Source: Aneurinibacillus soli (GTDB lineage: Bacteria > Bacillota > Bacilli > Aneurinibacillales > Aneurinibacillaceae). Taken from it: a stretch of 64,000 nucleotides of DNA. Positions 27,813 through 63,089 of the stretch are shown piece by piece. The notes below the pieces were generated by a model. The model was given only the letters and a program-made list of their open reading frames with translations, was not told where the DNA came from and searched no databases. The stretch covers positions 3,472,501 to 3,536,500 of the forward strand of contig NZ_AP017312.1 of NCBI RefSeq assembly GCF_002355375.1, written 5' to 3'. A program made the position numbers and the translations under genes. Each line of letters begins with the position of its first letter. Within the stretch, counting starts at the first letter, position 1.

Positions 27813-28277
27813 ATGAAGAAATTCCGAGGAAAAAAAAGATATTACCGAAATCTCTGGAAAAGAGTCAACCATTATTCACTCTATCTACAGGAAGATTCAT
27901 GGTACGACGTTTGGCATACTCATATTGATTGGAATGGTGTAAGTATACGGGGAGTAAAGCATAAAAAAGAACACCGCAGAGCGCTTCTTGCATTGTTTCA
28001 AACAATTCTTTCCCAATTAAAATTCTATAAAAAAGAGTATCAGACATGGGTTTGTATACATGAGAATGAGCCGACAGCAGATGCCGTGTACCTTCATACC
28101 TTCAACCCGAATCAAAATAATTTCCCGTTAACGTTCAAGAAGATATGTTGGTTAGAACAAATCCCCGGTACACTAAGCGGATTTATTGATTCAAATGCGT
28201 ATAAAGTTGGCTTTCAAAAAGCAGAAACAGGAACCATATACTGGATGTGCTCCAAGCAGCAAGGAGTTCCTCTATAA
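27813..28277 (+). CDS. Conserved hypothetical protein
   Basis: A 154-residue soluble, basic and Trp/Tyr-rich protein starting MKKFRGKKRYYRNLWKR. It has the look of a Firmicutes-wide uncharacterised family, with WYDVWHTHIDWNG and the middle block HTFNPNQNNFPL. It is 13 bp after the transpeptidase gene with a weak ribosome site, so it may be coupled to it. No function is known to me. Confidence 0.6.
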   Translation: MKKFRGKKRYYRNLWKRVNHYSLYLQEDSWYDVWHTHIDWNGVSIRGVKHKKEHRRALLALFQTILSQLKFYKKEYQTWVCIHENEPTADAVYLHTFNPNQNNFPLTFKKICWLEQIPGTLSGFIDSNAYKVGFQKAETGTIYWMCSKQQGVPL

Positions 28278-28320
28278 CTACAAGGTCTTCCATTTAGTGT
28301 TGAATTGCAACCTTTTTAAA

Positions 28321-28659
28321 GTTGCGGCCCGAGCAAATCAGTTCTGGCGTCGCATGTTTTTTGTAAACCGAAACGTTGTGCGGGGAGCGGGAGAAGGAAG
28401 GAGTAAGAGAGCGCCTGTACGCGCCTACTCAGCGAAGGGAGGACGGCGAACGGGCCTTTGCCCGCAATCCTTCGGTGAATCAACTTCGCAGGCCTTTCTT
28501 TGCGGGCGAGTTCGTCGGGCTCTCGGAGCGGACAGCCTCCACTTCCTTGCAAGCGTACCGAAGCGAACGGCTCCTTCCTTCTCCCGCTCCCTCACCACCA
28601 CACGTTGTCGATATCACGAAAAGCTGTCCTGTTCGCCCCGCTCTGGCTTTTGTGATATC
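28321..28659 (+). repeat. Fold-back repeat, copy 1
   Basis: This 340-bp noncoding block matches copy 3 along nearly its full length. It has a perfect 20-bp inverted repeat (28384-28403 with 28571-28590), a central hairpin (GCCCGCAA 28460-28467 with TTTGCGGGC 28499-28507) and internal GTACGC/GCGTAC arms. Its right end merges with the terminator hairpin of the EamA gene. It occupies the whole 388-bp gap between the hypothetical gene and eamA. Apparent frames inside it run across the palindromes and are not genes. Confidence 0.8.
28610..28659 (-). terminator. Terminator hairpin of the EamA gene, at the repeat edge
   Basis: A near-perfect 15-bp stem (GATATCAC.AAAAGC with GCTTTT.TGATATC) carries a loop shared with the right ends of repeat copies 3 and 4 (TGTCCT ... 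CGCC ... TGG). It lies 6 bp past the eamA stop; the T run is weak. Confidence 0.6.
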
Positions 28660-28665
28660 TCCCTA

Positions 28666-29622
28666 TTATAACGCCACACTTTTAGCTTCCCCAGAAGACT
28701 GTACCTCTCCACTATCTTCCACCGGCTTCTTAATCGCCAACAACGTTACCGTCGCGATAATACATAAGCCCCCAACTCCTTGCCACAGACCAAAGGCAAC
28801 ATGCAGCCATAGACAGGCTACAATGACTGCAGCAAGCGGCTCGGCACTCGATAACACACTCGCTTCTGTCGATGTAATATAACGTAAACTTTCGATAAAC
28901 ATATAGAACGGCACAAGTGTCCCAAATAGTATCACAAACGCAACATACGAGGCAGACAAAAGCGTCCAGTGCTGTCCCGCTACATCCCACAATGGGTTAA
29001 ATGTTGCAAGACACATGCTCCCAAGTACCATCGACCAGCCCACAACAATTGCCGAATTCCATCTCCCCAGAAGGCGGACCGGATACACTGTATAGAATGC
29101 CGCTGCAAGTGCTGAAACAATTCCCCAGATAAACGCATCAACCGGAATCGATATCCCTTGAAACGATCCATTTGTAATAAGCAAAAATGCCCCTATAAGT
29201 GCCAGCACAAGCGCACTGATTTCCCATCGATTCGGCAAGCGGCGGCATTTCCATGCTACATACACCGTAATAAATATCGGACCCAGATACTGCAAGAGTG
29301 TCGCGGTTGCCGCATCTCCTGTACCAACTGCCATAAAATATGTATACTGTACCCCTACCATACCGCCCACAGCAAAAATAAACAGGCGTACTCGATCTTC
29401 TGTATGACGGAAAATCTGCCATATCTCCTGCTGACCACTTTTCGCGGCAGTCCAGAGAAGCAACAATATACCCGCTACCATCATTCGCACCGTTACAAGC
29501 CAGCCGGGCTGAAACCCTTCGCTTGCAAATAATTGCTGTGCCACTGTCCCCGATATGCCCCATAGAGCGGCTCCGACGACAATCATCATAATTCCTTTGT
29601 ATCGCTTCTGTGTTATATTCAT
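28666..29622 (-). CDS. EamA-family (drug/metabolite) transporter
   Basis: A 318-residue permease with ten predicted helices arranged as two EamA repeats (GAALWGISGTVAQ ... and ... FIWGIVSALAAAFYTVYPV). The second repeat has the typical EPLAAVIVA end. Such proteins export metabolites or amino acids; the substrate is not readable. The C-terminal tail is hydrophilic. It is a single gene whose 3' end abuts repeat copy 1. Confidence 0.85.
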   Translation of the reverse strand: MNITQKRYKGIMMIVVGAALWGISGTVAQQLFASEGFQPGWLVTVRMMVAGILLLLWTAAKSGQQEIWQIFRHTEDRVRLFIFAVGGMVGVQYTYFMAVGTGDAATATLLQYLGPIFITVYVAWKCRRLPNRWEISALVLALIGAFLLITNGSFQGISIPVDAFIWGIVSALAAAFYTVYPVRLLGRWNSAIVVGWSMVLGSMCLATFNPLWDVAGQHWTLLSASYVAFVILFGTLVPFYMFIESLRYITSTEASVLSSAEPLAAVIVACLWLHVAFGLWQGVGGLCIIATVTLLAIKKPVEDSGEVQSSGEAKSVAL

Positions 29623-29710
29623 GCTGTTTCCACTTTTCGCCCCTTCCTTATGACTTACTATTTCTACTGTACTGTATTTTCTCGTGCCCGCCTACCCTTC
29701 TTACACTTAC

Positions 29711-29755
29711 AAAAAAAGCTGCCTTCTCCCCAAAAGGGAAAATGCAGCTTTTTTC
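29711..29755. terminator. Bidirectional terminator between eamA promoter region and feo operon
   Basis: The stem AAAAAAAGCTGC/GCAGCTTTTTT with an inner CCCC/GGG hairpin has A and T runs on both sides, 3 bp past the last feo gene. Confidence 0.85.
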
Positions 29756-29757
29756 TG

Positions 29758-29955
29758 CTATTTCAAAGAATGTTCCTCACGGTAACGGGTGTAAAATGTC
29801 ACTTCAGCCGGCTTACTCTCATCGCAGGCAGGAGCGCAGCCTTTTTTTGACGAGCAGCTGACACATTTTCCTTCCTTGCTTTTGACGGTAAATCGATACA
29901 GGGACCAGCCCGCATAACCGAAAATCACAGCCCCTATCATAATGTTGATAAGCAT
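29758..29955 (-). CDS. FeoB-associated Cys-rich membrane protein
   Basis: A 65-residue protein with one N-terminal membrane helix (residues 2-20), then a Cys-rich cytoplasmic part (CVSCSSKKGCAPAC). It is the third gene of the feo operon, 20 bp after feoB, the usual place for this small family. It probably assists or stabilises FeoB; a role in iron handling is inferred from the four cysteines. ATG follows AGGGAG. Confidence 0.8.
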   Translation of the reverse strand: MLINIMIGAVIFGYAGWSLYRFTVKSKEGKCVSCSSKKGCAPACDESKPAEVTFYTRYREEHSLK

Positions 29956-29975
29956 AGCTCTCCCTCATTTCTCAC

Positions 29976-31988
29976 TTACTGGAGACCGAGCAAGCGGCCA
30001 CCCTGATAGATTACAAGTGCAATGATATATGCGATCACAAGCGCGTAGCCAATCGAGAACCATGTCCAACGTGCAGACCCGGTCTCTTTACGAATAACAC
30101 CGACTGTAGCCAAGCACGGTACGTACAGCAGAATGAATGCCATAAAGCTGTAGGCCGAAAGCGGTGTGAAATGTGTCGCCAAAATCTTCTGCAGCGAACC
30201 TTCATCTGGTGCTGCATAAATGATGTTCATTGTCGCAACTACAACTTCTTTCGCCATGAATCCAGGTATAAGCGATGCGCCCGCTTGCCATGTTCCAAAC
30301 CCAAGCGGGGCAAATAACGGTGCCAAAAACCCACCAATCATCGCCAAAAAACTATGATCCATGTTTACATTCAGTCCGCCTGGCCCTGCATAGCTTAAGA
30401 ACCAGATCGCAACCGATCCTCCGAAGATGAGCGTACCCGCTTTTTTCACGAAGCCTTTGCCCTTCTCCCACGTACTGCGCAGAAGTGTGCGCCACTGTGG
30501 AAAACGGTACGGTGGAAGTTCAACAACAAACATCGAGCCTTCTTGCTTCAACAATGTGGACGAGAATAGCTTGGCAAGCAGAAGCGCTACTACAACCCCC
30601 AGCACATACATCGACAGCACGACCAGCGCCTGATTATGTACGAAAAACATCCCAACAAACAAGCTGTATACGGGAAGACGAGCCGAGCACGACATAAGCG
30701 GTGTCAAAAGAATCGTTAACAGTCGCTCTTTCGGCTGCTCAATCGTCCGGGCCGCCATAACACCTGGTACGTTGCAGCCAAAGCCGATAATCATCGGGAT
30801 GAATGCTTTACCGTTAAGACCGATCGCTTGCATGAGCCGATCCATTACCATTGCCACACGTGCCATATAACCGGAGTCTTCAATAAACGAAATCAAGAAG
30901 AACAGAATAAAAATTTGTGGTACAAATACGAGCACGCCACCCACACCGGCCACAATACCGTTGAGCACAACCGCCTGAATAAAATTAGATGCGCCCGCTG
31001 CTTGTAACGAACTTCGAAGCATATCAGCAAATGTACCGTTTAAAAATCCATCAATCTGATCGGACAATGGGGTGCCCAGCCAGTCGAACGTTAATTTAAA
31101 CATCAAAAACATAAACAACAGGAAAATCGGAATGCCAAGCACCCGGTTGGTTACAATGTGATCAATACGCTCGGATAACGTATACGTTTCGTTTTGGGTC
31201 CGGGTTACCGCACCCTCCATTACTCCGGTGATAAACGCCCCGCGTACAAGCCGGATATAATGCGGCAGTGAACGCGCATCAGAGGATGATGCACACACAT
31301 CCCGCTCCGTATCAGTCTGTAATTGAGCAAGCTGTTCTGCTGTAATATGAGATTCGAGAAGCTCGCGAATTAGCGCATTCCCTTCAAACAACTGAATCGC
31401 AAGCCAGCGCTTCGGCAGTGTAACCCCATCAGGTATCATATCCACCAGACGCTTAATCGCACGCTCGAGTACCGGACCGTAATCAAGCGCAAACGTAAGC
31501 GCCTGCTGATGCTCAGTGTGGGCAAGCTCTGCTCCGAGTTCCTGACATCCAGCTCCTGTTCGCGCCACAATCGGCAGCACAGGGACGCCAAGACGTGCCG
31601 ACAGTTCAGTTTCATTAATCATAAAACCTCGTCCACGGGCTACATCCATCATATTCAATCCGATAATAACCGGTTTCCCATATTCGAGAAGCTGTACTGT
31701 TAAATAAAGATTGCGCTCAATCTGGGACGCATCGACAATATTAAGAACCGAGGTAAATGATTCTGCAATCAGAAACTGTGTCGCTACCCCCTCATCACGC
31801 GAAAGGGGATTCAGCGAATAAATGCCCGGCAAGTCAACCAGCTCACCCTTTTTGTTCCGCAATGTTCCAACTTTCTTCTCAACCGTTACACCTGTCCAGT
31901 TCCCCACATATTCGTATGATCCAGTCAGAATGTTAAACAGTGATGTCTTTCCTGTATTCGGGTTTCCGGCAAGCGCAACGTGAATCAT
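29976..31988 (-). CDS. feoB: Ferrous iron transporter FeoB
   Basis: A 670-residue Fe(II) transporter. The N-terminal G domain has G1 GNPNTGKTS (8-16), G3 DLPGIYSL and G4 NMMD. A helical GDI-like part follows, then the membrane region with two Gate motifs (the first near FIPMIIGFGCNVPGVMAAR, with the conserved Cys). Start: the ATG at 31988 forms an ATGA overlap with the feoA stop; an in-frame start 17 codons upstream lies inside feoA. It imports ferrous iron and is expected to be Fur-regulated. Confidence 0.95.
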   Translation of the reverse strand: MIHVALAGNPNTGKTSLFNILTGSYEYVGNWTGVTVEKKVGTLRNKKGELVDLPGIYSLNPLSRDEGVATQFLIAESFTSVLNIVDASQIERNLYLTVQLLEYGKPVIIGLNMMDVARGRGFMINETELSARLGVPVLPIVARTGAGCQELGAELAHTEHQQALTFALDYGPVLERAIKRLVDMIPDGVTLPKRWLAIQLFEGNALIRELLESHITAEQLAQLQTDTERDVCASSSDARSLPHYIRLVRGAFITGVMEGAVTRTQNETYTLSERIDHIVTNRVLGIPIFLLFMFLMFKLTFDWLGTPLSDQIDGFLNGTFADMLRSSLQAAGASNFIQAVVLNGIVAGVGGVLVFVPQIFILFFLISFIEDSGYMARVAMVMDRLMQAIGLNGKAFIPMIIGFGCNVPGVMAARTIEQPKERLLTILLTPLMSCSARLPVYSLFVGMFFVHNQALVVLSMYVLGVVVALLLAKLFSSTLLKQEGSMFVVELPPYRFPQWRTLLRSTWEKGKGFVKKAGTLIFGGSVAIWFLSYAGPGGLNVNMDHSFLAMIGGFLAPLFAPLGFGTWQAGASLIPGFMAKEVVVATMNIIYAAPDEGSLQKILATHFTPLSAYSFMAFILLYVPCLATVGVIRKETGSARWTWFSIGYALVIAYIIALVIYQGGRLLGLQ

Positions 31989-32212
31989 ACGGCCTCCACC
32001 TGAATCAGACCAGCTTCCTGGCGACGAATGCCGACCCACTGTCCACTTGCTTCAAGTGCACACGGTCCACCGAATGGCAACAATCGCTTCATGCAAACTA
32101 CTGTTCCTTCCATAATCCCCATATCAAGCAGGCGACGGCGCACCACCTCTGTCACTTTGGTAATGTCCGTAATTTTCACTTTACTACCTGGTTCGATTTC
32201 CGATAACCACAT
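31985..32212 (-). CDS. feoA: FeoA, SH3-like partner of FeoB
   Basis: A 75-residue SH3-like protein (RRRLLDMGIMEGTVVCMKRLLPFGGP ...), the usual FeoA length. It overlaps feoB by 4 nt (ATGA), a sign of translational coupling. It is the first gene of the operon, preceded by GGGGG and by two Fur-box-like sites. Confidence 0.92.
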   Translation of the reverse strand: MWLSEIEPGSKVKITDITKVTEVVRRRLLDMGIMEGTVVCMKRLLPFGGPCALEASGQWVGIRRQEAGLIQVEAV

Positions 32213-32257
32213 TCCGCATTCCCCCTCTTACGGTACTTCTTCTTTATATCGAAGTAA

Positions 32258-32308
32258 TGATATTGATTTTCATTTATCTCTACTTCTATTATATGAGATG
32301 GATTCTCA
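32258..32308 (-). promoter_or_regulatory. Two Fur-box-like palindromes before feoA
   Basis: TGATATTGATTTTCA (32258-32272) matches the 7-1-7 Fur consensus TGATAATNATTATCA in 12 of 14 positions. TGAGATGGATTCTCA (32294-32308) matches in 10 of 14 and is itself nearly palindromic. Iron repression of feoAB is the expected role. Confidence 0.7.
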
Positions 32309-32363
32309 TTCGTAAAGGATATATGCGGAAAAAATTATGACAAATCAATTGCAATTTGTGAAA

Positions 32364-32612
32364 GTTTTCTCCAAAGTGTGGTGGAGGAGCGGGATCGGGC
32401 GTGGCCTCGTCACTTCGGTACGCTTACAGAGAAGCTAGGACTGTCCGCTCCAGGTGCCAACCGAACTCGCCCACAAAAGAACGCCCACGATGTATTTCTG
32501 AAGAAGCATTGTGGGCAAAAGCACGTTCGTCTGCCCCCTTCCGCTGGGAAGTCGCGTACAGGCGTTCCGTTGCCCCACCCGGTCCCGCTCCTAACACAGT
32601 TTGGAGAAACCC
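32364..32612 (-). repeat. Fold-back repeat, copy 2 (inverted orientation)
   Basis: Arms 32364-32400 and 32577-32612 are inverted copies of each other with few mismatches (core GGAGCGGGA.CGGG). The reverse complement aligns with copy 3 through the central modules (CGCCTGTACGCG, AGCGGA, TGGAGCGGACAGT, AAGCGTACCGAAG). It lies between the feo promoter and copy 3, so copies 2 and 3 form a pair of opposite polarity. Confidence 0.75.
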
Positions 32613-32682
32613 TTCCCGTATGATCAAGAGGATAAGCTTTGCTATGTAGGTAAAAAGCAAGGAAGCAAGCTTCAAAAAGCCA

Positions 32683-33017
32683 GTTGCAGCCCGAGCAAAT
32701 CCGTTCTAACGTAGCATGTTTTTTGTAAATCGAAACGTTGTGCGGGGAGTGGGGCAAGAGAGCTTTTGTACGCGCCTACTCAGCGGAGGGAGAACGGCGA
32801 ACGAGCCTTTGCCCGCAATCCTTCGACGAATCAACATCATCGGCTTTTCTTTGCGGGCACGTTCGTCGGGCTCCTGGAGCGGACAGTCACCACTTCTCTG
32901 CAAGCGTACCGAAGCGAACGGCTCCTCCCTTCTCCCACTCCCTCACCACAAACTTTCGATTCTACAACAAAACGAAGCTGCCCTGATTCGCCATGTTCTG
33001 GCTTTTAGGGCAGCTTC
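32683..33017 (+). repeat. Fold-back repeat, copy 3
   Basis: This copy matches copy 1 from GTTGCAGCCCGAGCAAAT to the terminal hairpin, about 335 bp, with the same inner hairpin and the same outer arms (GGGGAGTGGG / CCCACTCC). Together with copy 2 and the Fur boxes it accounts for the 808-bp gap between feoA and the dehydrogenase gene. Confidence 0.8.
32974..33017 (-). terminator. Terminator of the dehydrogenase gene, at the repeat edge
   Basis: A perfect 11-bp stem (GAAGCTGCCCT/AGGGCAGCTTC) lies 4 bp past the stop. The loop (TTCGCCATGTTCTGG) recurs in copies 1 and 4. On the minus strand CGTTTTGTTG follows. Confidence 0.75.
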
Positions 33018-33020
33018 TTC

Positions 33021-33908
33021 TTATTTTTTCGACACACCCGACTGATTAAGCAACTCGGCAAACACCACTGCCATATCCTGCTCGTCTAAGCCATGATTCA
33101 TCGCAGCCGTATAGCTTTGATACGCCGCTGCTGTGGCTGGCAAGATGCTACCGTTATGGCGTGCCTGCTCTAATACAAGACCAAGGTCTTTATGCATATG
33201 CTTGAGTGCAAAAGCAGCCGGATACGCTTCCGTCTCAAGCGACGGTCGCTTAAATCCAAGGAACGGAGACGACACCGCCGCCTGCTGCATCATATCAAGC
33301 ACTGTTGTACGTTCAAGTCCGAACTTTTCTGCCAGCACAAGCGATTCTGAGATTCCCTGCATAGTCATGCCGAGAAGCAAGTTAATCACAAGCTTCGCCT
33401 TCGAACCGCTTCCGTTTTCTCCAAAATACAGCGAGGCTTTGCCCATCGCAGCAAACATCTCCGCAAGTTCGTCAAATACATCTCGCGGACCACCATATAG
33501 AATCACAAGCCCGGCACTCTCCGCCGCATTCGTACTGCCGGACACAGGAGCGTCCACCATCGTAATCCCCATCTCGCGAGCCGCTTCTGCTAATGTGCAA
33601 GATGTATCCGGGGAAATGGTGCTCATATCGACGAGAATAGTCGGTGCTTCCATATAATCAAGAACACCGCCATCTCCCACAATCATCTGCTCAACCGCTT
33701 CATCATTAGATAGCATTGTAATGACTACATCTTTTTCTCGCACTGCGTCTTCAAGCGACTCCGCTACCTGCAATCCTTGCTCGCCCAGCACCTTTGCTTT
33801 ATCTGCCGTCCGGTTGTATACGGTTACGTCAAATCCTGCTTTATGGAGATTTATCGCCATCGGACTTCCCATGTTGCCCAGGCCGATGAACCCGATTCGT
33901 TTGCTCAT
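33021..33908 (-). CDS. Beta-hydroxyacid dehydrogenase, 3-hydroxyisobutyrate dehydrogenase type
   Basis: A 295-residue NAD(P)-dependent enzyme with the Rossmann motif GFIGLGNMG (6-14), the substrate-binding block DAPVSGST (about 119-126) and the catalytic Lys172 in GSGSKAKLVIN. Possible substrates are 3-hydroxyisobutyrate, tartronate semialdehyde or related short hydroxyacids; neighbours do not decide. Start: the ATG at 33908 (MSKRIGF) has GAGGAG about 10 nt upstream, and an in-frame ATG 12 codons earlier has none. Confidence 0.85.
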   Translation of the reverse strand: MSKRIGFIGLGNMGSPMAINLHKAGFDVTVYNRTADKAKVLGEQGLQVAESLEDAVREKDVVITMLSNDEAVEQMIVGDGGVLDYMEAPTILVDMSTISPDTSCTLAEAAREMGITMVDAPVSGSTNAAESAGLVILYGGPRDVFDELAEMFAAMGKASLYFGENGSGSKAKLVINLLLGMTMQGISESLVLAEKFGLERTTVLDMMQQAAVSSPFLGFKRPSLETEAYPAAFALKHMHKDLGLVLEQARHNGSILPATAAAYQSYTAAMNHGLDEQDMAVVFAELLNQSGVSKK

Positions 33909-33977
33909 CCTCTGCCACTCCTCTGCTTGCACATAGTTTTTCACACTTTTCTTATTATAGCGTAGGTGACTATATTC

Positions 33978-53524: not shown

Positions 53525-53667
53525 ACGTTTCTTCCTTTCTTAATGCCCAAAAAAAGCATACTGTTCCTATTGTACCCGAACTTTCTCATTTAGACTACTT
53601 CGCATTTTTCCCTTGCATTATGTATTAGGTGCAGTATAATAAAATCAAAATTTGATACACTTCGTAA

Positions 53668-53768
53668 ACTGCTGGGGGATCCCGATGAGTCGGGCTGAGA
53701 ATGAAACGCGATGAAGTTTCTAAACTCCTGGGACCTGATCTGGTTTGTACCAGCGTAGGAAAGCAGAC
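53668..53768 (+). promoter_or_regulatory. TPP riboswitch (THI element)
   Basis: The aptamer shows GGGCTGAGA, then ACCTGATCTGG ... ACCAGCGTAGGAAAGC, the highly conserved thi-box halves. It precedes a terminator and the tenI-thiO-thiS-thiG operon, so thiamine pyrophosphate should stop transcription. With the terminator it fills the 344-bp gap after the helicase gene. Confidence 0.95.
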
Positions 53769-53812
53769 GGCCATCACCATAAACAGCGCCTCAAGCGTTC
53801 GTAAGCCGGGTC

Positions 53813-61093: not shown

Positions 61094-61348
61094 ATGAAAT
61101 GGCAGGACGAATCTTCCGCACTGCTGGACGAGCTTCTTAAGCCGCTTCCAGTATTCGTGCGCCCAATGGCGAAGAAATCAATCAAAAGCAAAATTGAACA
61201 AGTAGCCCAGGAAAACGGTGCTGAGGAAATCAGTCATGACCACGTAGTTCGCGGTTACATTTTGGCTGCTCCGGACAAGGATCGTGCCGTAACGGCTCTG
61301 GAAGCTCATAATATCGACCTGGCTCCTTATGAGGAATTATTAAAATAA
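61094..61348 (+). CDS. PCP_red-like small protein
   Basis: An 84-residue soluble helical protein. Its core, FVRPMAKKSIKSKIEQVAQE followed by GAEEISHDHV, matches the short PCP_red domain first seen at the end of light-independent protochlorophyllide reductase, where it resembles an iron-sulphur-linked module. Here it stands alone in a non-photosynthetic setting. Role unknown. ATG follows AAAGGGAG. Confidence 0.65.
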   Translation: MKWQDESSALLDELLKPLPVFVRPMAKKSIKSKIEQVAQENGAEEISHDHVVRGYILAAPDKDRAVTALEAHNIDLAPYEELLK

Positions 61349-61370
61349 GTAGCACACATTAAAGAGAAGG

Positions 61371-61422
61371 AGGCTGTCTCAAAGCCGTAACATGGCGACT
61401 GAGACAGCCTCTTCTTTTTCTT
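61371..61422 (+). terminator. GCTGTCTCAA-type terminator
   Basis: Outer AGGCTGTCTC/GAGACAGCCT with inner GCC.TAACATGGC pairing, then CTTCTTTTTCTT. Its inner loop is the near-reverse complement of the hairpin at the other end of repeat copy 4. Confidence 0.85.
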
Positions 61423-61430
61423 GGTGTAGG

Positions 61431-61622
61431 TTTTCTCTCCAAAGCGTGGTGAAAGAGCGGGATCGGGCGGAGCCTCGTCACTTTGGTACGCTTGCTAAGA
61501 AGTGAGGACTGTCCGCAAGCGTACCGAAGCGAACGGATTATCCCTTCTCCCACTCCCTCACTACCACACGTTGTCGATATTACGAAAAGCTGTCCTATCC
61601 GCCATGTTATGGCTTTTGGGAT
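61431..61622. repeat. Fold-back repeat, copy 4 (centre deleted)
   Basis: The left half (TTTTCTCTCCAAAGCGTGG ... GGACTGTCCGC) matches the left arm of copy 2; the right half (AAGCGTACCGAAGCGAACGG ... CACACGTTG) matches the right arm of copies 1 and 3. The middle 100 bp or so is missing, leaving an 11-bp perfect stem GGTACGCTTGC/GCAAGCGTACC (61485-61495 with 61515-61525). It ends at the terminator hairpin of the MFS gene. Confidence 0.75.
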
Positions 61623-61653
61623 AACCGCTTCTGTGCTCGGCATGGGCGTTGCC

Positions 61654-62853
61654 TCACACACAGTCTGCTTTTTGTCTATGCAGTTTTCCTCTCACCCACA
61701 AAGCATTCCCAAAGAACAATACAGCAGCAAGCAAGAACAATCCATGTAGGCCAACCCAGCTACTCAACGGGCCACCGATTACAGGTCCTAGGAGATTGCC
61801 GAGATTCATCGCACTCGTGCTGTATGCAAACGTCCGGCTTTCCATGCCCTTCGGCGCGTACTGGCGAATTAAATTATGCACAGAAGGTACAAGCCCACCC
61901 AGGCATATCCCAAGTAAGAAGCGAAGACCGATCAAGAGCCAGACTGAATGTACGAACGCCTGTGGGATTAGCAAAACAACCGTTCCAAGCAAGCAAATGA
62001 GCAACACATTATGTGAACCGACCTTATCCCCCCATTTACCAAGCAAAGGCGCGACCAACACGGTAGAAATTCCGGCCGCAGACACCGTCAACCCGATCAC
62101 AAACGATAACAAATTCTGCCCTTGCCACAGCTCCTGTACATAGGAAGACAAAAACGGATTCGTGCTCATCATCGCATACTGGATTAAAAATCCGACCAAA
62201 AACAGCGCAAGCAGCGGCTCTGTATGCAAAATACGGTGAAACCCGCCTTCCTCACCTTCTACCATCTGTTTCGGCTGTGGACGGTTCACTTCTTTTACAA
62301 ACAAAATGACAAAGATTGATGCAGTAAGCAGCATGCTGCCGGTCACCAGAAACACATGACGGAACCCTACCCACTCTGCCAACAATCCGCCTAATAATGG
62401 TCCAAGAATCGTACCAGCGACCGCCCCTGACTGCAGCAAGCCAAGCGAATACCCAGCATGCTCTTTCGGTGTGTTGGTTGAGACAAGCGCGACTGCGGCC
62501 GGAATGAAGCCCGAGATCATCCCATTCAGAAGCCTAAGTCCAAGCAACTGCTCCGGTGATGTCACCATTCCCATAAGAACAGTAACAGTGGCCATGCCAA
62601 TACCGGAACGAATGAGCATCACTTTACGCCCAGTACGATCCGCTAATCGTCCCCATACCGGGGCCATTAGAAATGCGGTTAAGAAATTCGCGCCAAAAAT
62701 CCAACCCGTCCAGCGATGTACCGCATCCATGTCTGTCATTCCCATATCATGCTGAAGATACATCGGCAAAAACGGTATAATCAAACTCATAGCCGCCGTT
62801 ACAATAAACTGTGCAGCCCATAAAATATACATGTTACGCTTCCAAATTGGCAT
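61654..62853 (-). CDS. MFS transporter, multidrug type
   Basis: A 399-residue permease with 12 predicted helices. The loop 2-3 motif GRLADRTGRKVML (MFS motif A) and the middle VALVSTNTPKEHAGYSLGLLQSG region place it among drug:H+ antiporters (MdtG-like). The ATG at 62853 follows AAGGAGAC; an earlier in-frame ATG would add 41 residues of non-membrane sequence and has no site. Its 3' end abuts repeat copy 4. Confidence 0.88.
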   Translation of the reverse strand: MPIWKRNMYILWAAQFIVTAAMSLIIPFLPMYLQHDMGMTDMDAVHRWTGWIFGANFLTAFLMAPVWGRLADRTGRKVMLIRSGIGMATVTVLMGMVTSPEQLLGLRLLNGMISGFIPAAVALVSTNTPKEHAGYSLGLLQSGAVAGTILGPLLGGLLAEWVGFRHVFLVTGSMLLTASIFVILFVKEVNRPQPKQMVEGEEGGFHRILHTEPLLALFLVGFLIQYAMMSTNPFLSSYVQELWQGQNLLSFVIGLTVSAAGISTVLVAPLLGKWGDKVGSHNVLLICLLGTVVLLIPQAFVHSVWLLIGLRFLLGICLGGLVPSVHNLIRQYAPKGMESRTFAYSTSAMNLGNLLGPVIGGPLSSWVGLHGLFLLAAVLFFGNALWVRGKLHRQKADCV

Positions 62854-63089
62854 CGTATCTGTCTCCTTCTGCTGAAAACAACAAAATCCCCGGCATAACA
62901 CGCGCGAGGACCTACCGTACAATAAATAAGTAACTTTTTCATTATACCCTTGTTGTTTTCTAAACAGAATAGGCATTTTTTAAGGTAGATCCTATTTCAT
63001 CCTCCGTCGCGTTTCAGCAAAAAATACGCTACTATGTACTAGAGAAACTATATGCAACAATGATTCTAAATACAAGGAGTGCCCTTCAT

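Follow-up and report, generated by a model that had tools for sequence, protein, structure and literature searches.

Layout of the repeat in the window

The stretch of DNA analyzed here, referred to as the window, comprises 64,000 nucleotides of the Aneurinibacillus soli genome (G000, contig C1, positions 3472501–3536500). At three places, i.e., 28321–28659, about 32360–33025 and 61370–61625 in window coordinates, it carries a long fold-back repeat that is likely a mobile, gene-less, terminator-seeking and IS1182-like element. A preceding sequence-only reading had described this repeat as four blocks (termed copies 1 to 4 in the following), the positions of which were confirmed, while their mutual relationships had to be revised in part.

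Copy 1 (28321–28659, +) is a solo right half flanked by the 3' ends of two convergent open reading frames (ORFs), namely 27813–28277 (+), which has no Pfam match, and 28666–29622 (−), encoding an EamA-type transporter. Its structured module (28408–28570, +) covers 163 of the 163 positions of the covariance model introduced below and scores 181 bits. The outer arms, 28383–28403 and 28571–28591 (both +), pair perfectly over 21 bp instead of the 20 bp originally proposed, and the claim of a very stable fold is borne out by comparison of 28383–28591 with shuffled sequences (z −5.17, none of 200 shuffles as low). The right-end hairpin (28610–28659, +), delimited on the sequence by alignment of ends, combines the family loop with a different outer stem (GATATCAC/GTGATATC) and is separated by 6 nt from the EamA stop codon.

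Copies 2 and 3 had been regarded as independent units with copy 2 in inverted orientation. The inversion stands, but the two are halves of a single near-complete element of ~660 bp (32360–33025, +), as judged from alignment of the halves and from the recurrence of the same order in other copies; the sister species has a co-located copy. This element is situated between the upstream region of feoB and the 3' end of a gene encoding a protein with NAD-binding dehydrogenase domains (33021–33944, −). Its left-half module (32406–32568, −) scores 176.1 bits and its right-half module (32759–32921, +) 176.7 bits. The left-end hairpin typical for the family is missing, and the distal arm of the terminator-like right-end hairpin (32966–33025, +) extends over the stop codon of gene 33021–33944. 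Copies 1 and 3 are alike from end to end, as had been stated, with 88% identity over 77 nt, 87% over 199 nt and 71% over a 38-nt right-end stretch. The outer arm of copy 3 is partly lost, as indicated by an alignment gap, and its arms match by just 83% over 18 nt.

Copy 4 (61370–61625, +) resides between the convergent ORFs 61094–61348 (+) and 61654–62976 (−). It is not a block of the common layout confined to 61431–61622, as had been assumed, but an internally deleted derivative with a truncated module (30.7 bits), a left-end hairpin (61370–61411) that falls outside that interval and a degraded right-end hairpin (about 61586–61625). A common centre had been assigned to all four blocks; it is present as exact GCCCGCAA/TTGCGGGC in right halves and in compensated form, GCCCACAA/TTGTGGGC, in left halves, while copy 4 lacks it.

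In general, an element runs from a left hairpin through the left half, whose module is on the minus strand, and a spacer to the right half, with a plus-strand module, and a right hairpin. The earlier description did not mention that complete elements bear terminator-like hairpins at their ends. Both end hairpins are not present in every G000 copy; among the 19 copies that have them, 14 measure 718–728 bp and five 380–630 bp. The copies are many, and a transposase gene is absent inside the element, exceptions being copies with foreign inserts (IS110, L076 and L077, see below), and indels between copies speak against a coding capacity of the module. Scanning of 28200–33150 yielded 10 promoter-like sites vs. 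5.6 ± 3.0 in shuffled sequences, two of them at the left edge of the complete element and none inside its spacer. The same scan, which had a loop limit of 8 nt, did not call any of the end hairpins a terminator, so that the designation "terminator-like" is based on sequence and position.

Abundance and position relative to genes

To assess abundance, a right-half pattern of 28 bases with up to three mismatches and a left-half pattern of 24 bases were used, with the reversed pattern serving as control. The right-half pattern occurred at 63 places in G000, at 31 in its sister species G006 and at none in the congener G003; the respective numbers for the left-half pattern were 53, 22 and 0. As the control yielded no match throughout, these counts exceed chance, and the host genome thus contains further copies, the absence of which the sequence-only reading had named as evidence against a repeat family. 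The copies are roughly 80–90% alike. DNA searches of 61 genomes (G000 and 60 relatives) revealed strong matches solely in G000 and G006, with G003 contributing two weak ones, and a pattern for the end-hairpin loop was found 53 times in G000, 33 times in G006 and 0–1 times in each of G001–G005 (control there 0–2). Four queries against plasmid and phage collections gave zero matches. The exact pattern had one match in a contig collection, which may omit the genome of the window and its near relatives; it stems from an unrelated metagenome-assembled genome and corresponds to the chance level estimated for 18 bases.

Merging of 69 hit clusters in G000 resulted in 62 elements, 59 of which had an ORF called on both sides. 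They are located between two 3' ends in 33 cases, between 3' and 5' ends in 13 and 8 cases and between two 5' ends in five cases; ORF calling was simple and some of the calls are wrong, e.g., the near-complete element of the window was scored as lying between two 3' ends even though its left neighbor is the upstream region of feoB. The median distance to 3' flanks (n = 87) was 14 nt, with 75 of the 87 at most 60 nt away, compared to 77 nt and 13 of 31 for 5' flanks.

In two G000 loci the halves of the repeat are separated by other sequences. In L076 (1955239–1958361 of the genome), they are separated by ORFs, which by eye we take to encode a TetR-type regulator and a transporter, while in G006 the halves are adjacent. 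In L077 (3213549–3215108), ORF fragments intervene that appear similar to an ISXO2/IS1595 transposase and two of which have no Pfam match.

A third kind of insert is an IS110-family insertion sequence (IS; PF01548, PF02371) of 1642 bp that is present in G000 in seven identical copies and had no match at E ≤ 1e-10 in the nine relatives searched, G006 included. All seven reside in the repeat at one and the same point, between GGCTTT and TTTCTT on the loop side of the right module. As a parent of the repeat IS110 was ruled out, since it was not found in the nine relatives while G006 is rich in the repeat.

The folded module: covariation, phyletic spread and strand preference

Each half of the element contains a fold of ~163 nt, such that a complete element in G000 comprises two divergent module copies. 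For right halves (alignment A1, 53 sequences), the consensus structure contains 50 pairs, 16 of them with double changes, and none of 500 shuffled alignments reached any of five measures. When the fold was slid by 1–3 columns, 38–55% of the cells paired, vs. 97.8% in register, and only 2–11 pairs showed double changes. RNAalifold picked a shifted outer helix on the gapped alignment A1, and the 50-pair counts refer to that structure; refolding was therefore based on cleaned rows, 43 of 53 being kept for A1 and 53 of 55 for A2. A set of 53 combined units (25 right and 28 left) gave 33 pairs, 17 with double changes, and was used to build the covariance model R1 with 163 positions, the E-values of which are rough.

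Searching the host and its relatives with such a model had been suggested at the outset. At E ≤ 0.01, considering the best nine candidates per genome and applying strict filters, R1 matched 40 of 299 Bacilli genomes and 20 of 118 genera, among them G000 and its congeners G003, G005 and G006. In a sample of the phylum (398 genomes, E ≤ 0.001) nothing was found beyond G000 itself. Thirty-five units from other genomes share 24 pairs, 21 of them with at least two Watson-Crick types, and 88.8% of the cells are paired; these units played no part in building R1 but, having been found by it, lean toward paired columns. Conserved motifs include AGCGGA (5' side), AGCGGACAGT (3' side) and CAA..TTTTG, which surrounds the loop. 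Two divergent modules, minus followed by plus, occur in seven loci from other genomes (L151, L152, L154, L155, L157, L163 and L170; weakest second module, E 0.007), and the elements of some relatives have one module instead of two. Single-module elements with a third type of end (TCTACA..CAAA..TGTGCTTGAC) were seen in G005 (L171–L173). In L199, L202 and L204 from G204, a genome of a different family treated below, the inner hairpin is lost with break points near both AGCGGA motifs.

At the Rfam gathering score the window contains a thiamine pyrophosphate (TPP) riboswitch at 53664–53778 (RF00059, 64 bits) and nothing else. In six loci searched at E ≤ 1 the module remained unmatched, with a sub-threshold match to SR1 located beside it (E 0.065, 27.8 of 45 bits). 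Similarly, a description of the module was not found in the parts of the literature covered on Aneurinibacillus repeats, IS1182, miniature inverted-repeat transposable elements (MITEs), bcr1 and terminator targeting. The module is the new part of the element, absent from Rfam 15 and from the literature to the extent covered, and within these limits the term "undescribed" used in the sequence-only reading holds. The same reading had offered structured RNAs as one possibility; for the module the fold is supported by covariation, while its transcription is putative.

The consensus fold of right halves is more favorable on the plus strand (−101.1 vs. −60.9 on minus) and that of left halves on the minus strand (−78.7 vs. 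−37.5 on plus), which corresponds to the same strand of the unit in both halves, read outward. Single folds of left halves were lower on the minus strand in 39 of 53 sequences. One-sided changes in the 24 helix pairs shared by both strands led to G-T in 31 and to A-C in 8 cases. Taken together, the strand data lend moderate support to the idea that the module may act as RNA or as one specific single strand.

Comparison with the sister species

The tiles compared show G000 and G006 to be collinear, and for located loci the best matches of the flanks have ~82–93% identity. About a dozen loci are occupied in both species, so that insertions at these sites are old. One of them, G000 2072217–2072870 (L087) and G006 1615238–1615939 (L065), harbors the element in opposite orientations, which could be due either to inversion of the whole element or to two independent insertions into one terminator.

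A search for empty sites, likewise proposed before, led to 14 listed G000 loci at which G006 does not have a full element. At five of them (3430753, 3500820, 2800686, 2048953 and 1995237 of the G000 genome, the second being copy 1 of the window), G006 has a lone hairpin with the loop of an element end. At four others an unrelated hairpin is found in place of the element, namely at 2771638, 2773756, 2775247 and 3542576, with folding energies of −26.3, −14.7, −9.8 and −18.0 kcal/mol, respectively. At 2773756, the bases that flank the G006 hairpin continue directly outside the G000 element on both sides. A nearby hairpin was noted at 2021733, where it is also retained in G000, and at 2974321, no G006 hairpin at 2183275 and 3018351, and a short decayed copy, which was not folded, at 2189042. 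From these data, G000 would have gained copies rather than G006 having lost them, a direction read from these two species.

Direct repeats flanking the insertions, i.e., the target duplications that had been suggested for inspection, are absent from the G000 elements (0 of 19 copies with both ends; scores 8–15, control mean 11.0, 95th percentile 15) and present in G204 and G240 (see below). The end hairpins themselves were considered as direct target duplications in G000, and this was ruled out because the left and right loops are mutually inverted.

Hairpin duplication and an IS1182 partner in a different family

Genomes G204 and G240 represent one genus (g50) of a family different from that of G000. 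Here, the module resides in an element of 261 bp with the ends GCGTGTAGACAAA and TTTGTCTACAG. Leaving aside 14 incompletely matched loci and L181, a duplicate of L162, there are 12 distinct complete elements, 11 of which are flanked by direct repeats with aligned stretches of 19–30 nt, L162 being the exception. The duplication scores (27–58) exceed the maximum of 19 obtained for 132 mismatched control pairs. The flanking repeats are mostly whole stem-loops, often beside runs of T or A; two of the 11 duplicated hairpins (L187 and L205) fold weakly.

In G204, an end of the type TCAGC(C/G)TGTAGACAAA, very similar to the ends of the module elements, is also found at one end of insertion sequences, the other end of which is TCAGATTGCAGACAAA. 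Their transposase matches IS1182 of NCBIfam (NF033551, 1.2e-142), and the matches listed include 14 places where at least 423 residues are aligned. A palindrome is directly duplicated around four of six IS1182 copies of subgroup B, while for the four copies of subgroup A the far end was not resolved. A search for the module inside IS1182 copies, covering 12 loci at E ≤ 1, gave no match. In this other family the element ends match an IS1182-family element, so that the match to a known IS end named earlier as evidence against an undescribed element is given in part; in G000 it is not.

Discussion

Based on the evidence presented above, the blocks in the window are probably copies of a nonautonomous, terminator-targeting mobile element that behaves in the manner of an IS1182-family MITE and carries an inner folded module. 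The earlier suggestion of nonautonomous mobile units is backed by the many copies and the empty sites in the sister species as well as, in a relative, by duplicated hairpins and a partner with similar ends that bears a transposase. An element with inverted ends would insert at intrinsic terminators, i.e., hairpins just past stop codons. In the G000 lineage the insertion seems to replace the host hairpin, as published for IS1272, with a complete copy bringing along its own end hairpins, while in G204 and G240 the host hairpin is duplicated instead. Since replacement as well as duplication leaves a terminator to the neighboring genes, the element could spread at low cost. The window's copies would have been moved by an IS1182 transposase; given that none was found in G000, we infer this mover and therefore state that the element works like, not that it is, an IS1182-family MITE.

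Several observations weigh against this picture. IS1182 transposase was not found in G000 (E ≤ 0.001), and the sole one in G006 is decayed and has no such end hairpin near it. IS1182 elements of congeners were considered as parents and discarded, as none of those examined has end hairpins of the G000 type nearby, and the end signature of the G000 hairpins, GAGGCTGTC..AAAGCC, is not present on any transposase-bearing element examined. Beyond G204 and G240, hairpin duplication was seen in only two of 34 loci (L140 and L158, from two genomes), even though none of 111 control pairs reaches their score. Flush junctions on both sides are found at just one of the four replacement sites, 2773756, and 2775247 is the weakest in view of its folding energy, a G000 fragment of just 96 bp and a diverged left flank. 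Lone hairpins of the end type may be targets or remnants, and three of the seven listed look like remnants (L124, L125 and L128, which include pieces of the inner right end). The proportion of convergent sites (33 of 59) is a raw one, not scaled to a genome-wide background. With regard to the module, copies are kin and covariation counts are therefore not independent events. Single folds of right halves were lower on the plus strand in just 26 of 43 cases and thus show no clear strand preference, and with a strand-neutral structure that excludes G-U pairs and has little power, right halves gave 29 G-T vs. 14 A-C changes (p 0.03) and left halves nothing significant.

Among described repeats, those of the bcr1 type from Bacillus cereus fold and are likewise repeats of Bacilli; they are likened here by description alone. 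Statements on other systems refer to the portions of the cited articles that were covered. IS1272, a member of the IS1182 family, uses stem-loops as targets, several of them confirmed terminators, whereby the target hairpin is lost entirely or partly and no duplication arises (PMC4923244, PMC5678879). The absence of flanking repeats in G000 (0 of 19) and the four sites where the hairpin of the sister species is an unrelated one resemble IS1272 and TnSha1 from staphylococci (PMC5678879, PMC4923244). However, IS1272 encodes a transposase whereas the element described here is gene-less and contains a conserved folded module, and elements in G204 and G240 duplicate the hairpin (11 of 12) instead of replacing it. 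Whole-hairpin duplication has been sketched as possible pathway (b) of the IS1272 model (PMC5678879). MITEPye1 from Paracoccus yeei is also nonautonomous and mainly intergenic, has IS1182-like ends and is predicted to form long stem-loops at the RNA level, but occurs in 1–3 copies per chromosome with direct repeats (PMC11578231); neither a cross-genus module nor targeting of terminator hairpins is mentioned in the parts of that article covered.

The landing of IS110-type elements in palindromic repeats at a fixed target is already known and is shared with repetitive extragenic palindromes (REPs) and bacterial interspersed mosaic elements (BIMEs; PMC1525189, PMC11208160). A REP- or BIME-like repeat mobilized by a REP-associated tyrosine (RAYT, Y1) transposase would also be palindromic, intergenic and present in many copies, yet with about 720 bp and two large modules the element by far exceeds the 20–40 bp of a REP (PMC3733652), and the replaced or duplicated hairpins suit the IS1182 kind. 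The notion of large REP-like elements put forward in the sequence-only reading is hence not supported, with no search for RAYT genes made, and we consider such an origin highly improbable. The same low standing applies to derivation from, or mobilization by, the IS110-family element: its seven identical copies at a single repeat site would fit, but it was not found in G006, where the repeat is abundant, or in the other eight relatives searched, it interrupts the module without affecting the element ends, and its copies are identical as opposed to repeats that are roughly 80–90% alike.

More weight has to be given to two explanations that concern the module. Its fold could be kept at the DNA level, as a cruciform or hairpin for a stem-loop-seeking transposase and without any RNA function. 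The choice of targets by stem-loop shape in IS1272 (PMC5678879, PMC4923244), perfect long arms as in copy 1 and the small strand preference in single folds of right halves agree with this proposal, which we nevertheless deem rather unlikely in light of the strand-biased consensus folds (right plus, left minus), the excess of G-T over A-C in the 24 two-strand pairs and the lack of module matches in IS1182 copies. Alternatively, the module may be a structured RNA or 3'-end element that serves the host and is under host selection, with mobility being incidental or long past. Deep covariation together with conserved unpaired motifs, the dozen or so loci occupied in both G000 and G006 and the terminator-like end hairpins adjoining stop codons would all be expected in this case; the 14 listed loci devoid of a full copy in G006, the hairpin duplications at element ends along with the transposase-bearing partner with similar ends in G204, and the patchy presence in 40 of 299 genomes render it improbable.

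Returning to the mobile, IS1182-like element as the preferred explanation, its module would act as RNA, or as a specific single strand, read outward from the center of the element. We tentatively propose, as a possibility that is far from established, an undescribed RNA family from about 20 genera of Bacilli that resides on IS1182-type elements targeting hairpins and takes part in their life cycle as RNA. In nonautonomous elements the sequence between the ends is expected to drift. Here, the inside keeps its fold and its unpaired motifs across genera, and so the module probably does something; preservation of a shape in many genera of Bacilli is not what is usually seen in a DNA parasite supposed to lack function. 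The module would be transcribed, and its function may lie in binding of the transposase or in shaping or protecting transcripts the terminators of which take up the insertion.

Insertion at hairpins is seen here with two naturally occurring outcomes, namely apparent replacement in one lineage and duplication of the whole hairpin in another, the latter being no more than a possible pathway in the IS1272 model. The findings show how a repeat can spread over gene ends with the terminator of each gene retained, and how a second mobile element of the IS110 type can use such a repeat as a landing site. If the proposed role of the module holds true, the element would add another bacterial transposon that depends on a folded RNA, besides those with the bridge RNAs of IS110 and the omega RNAs of IS605-type elements.

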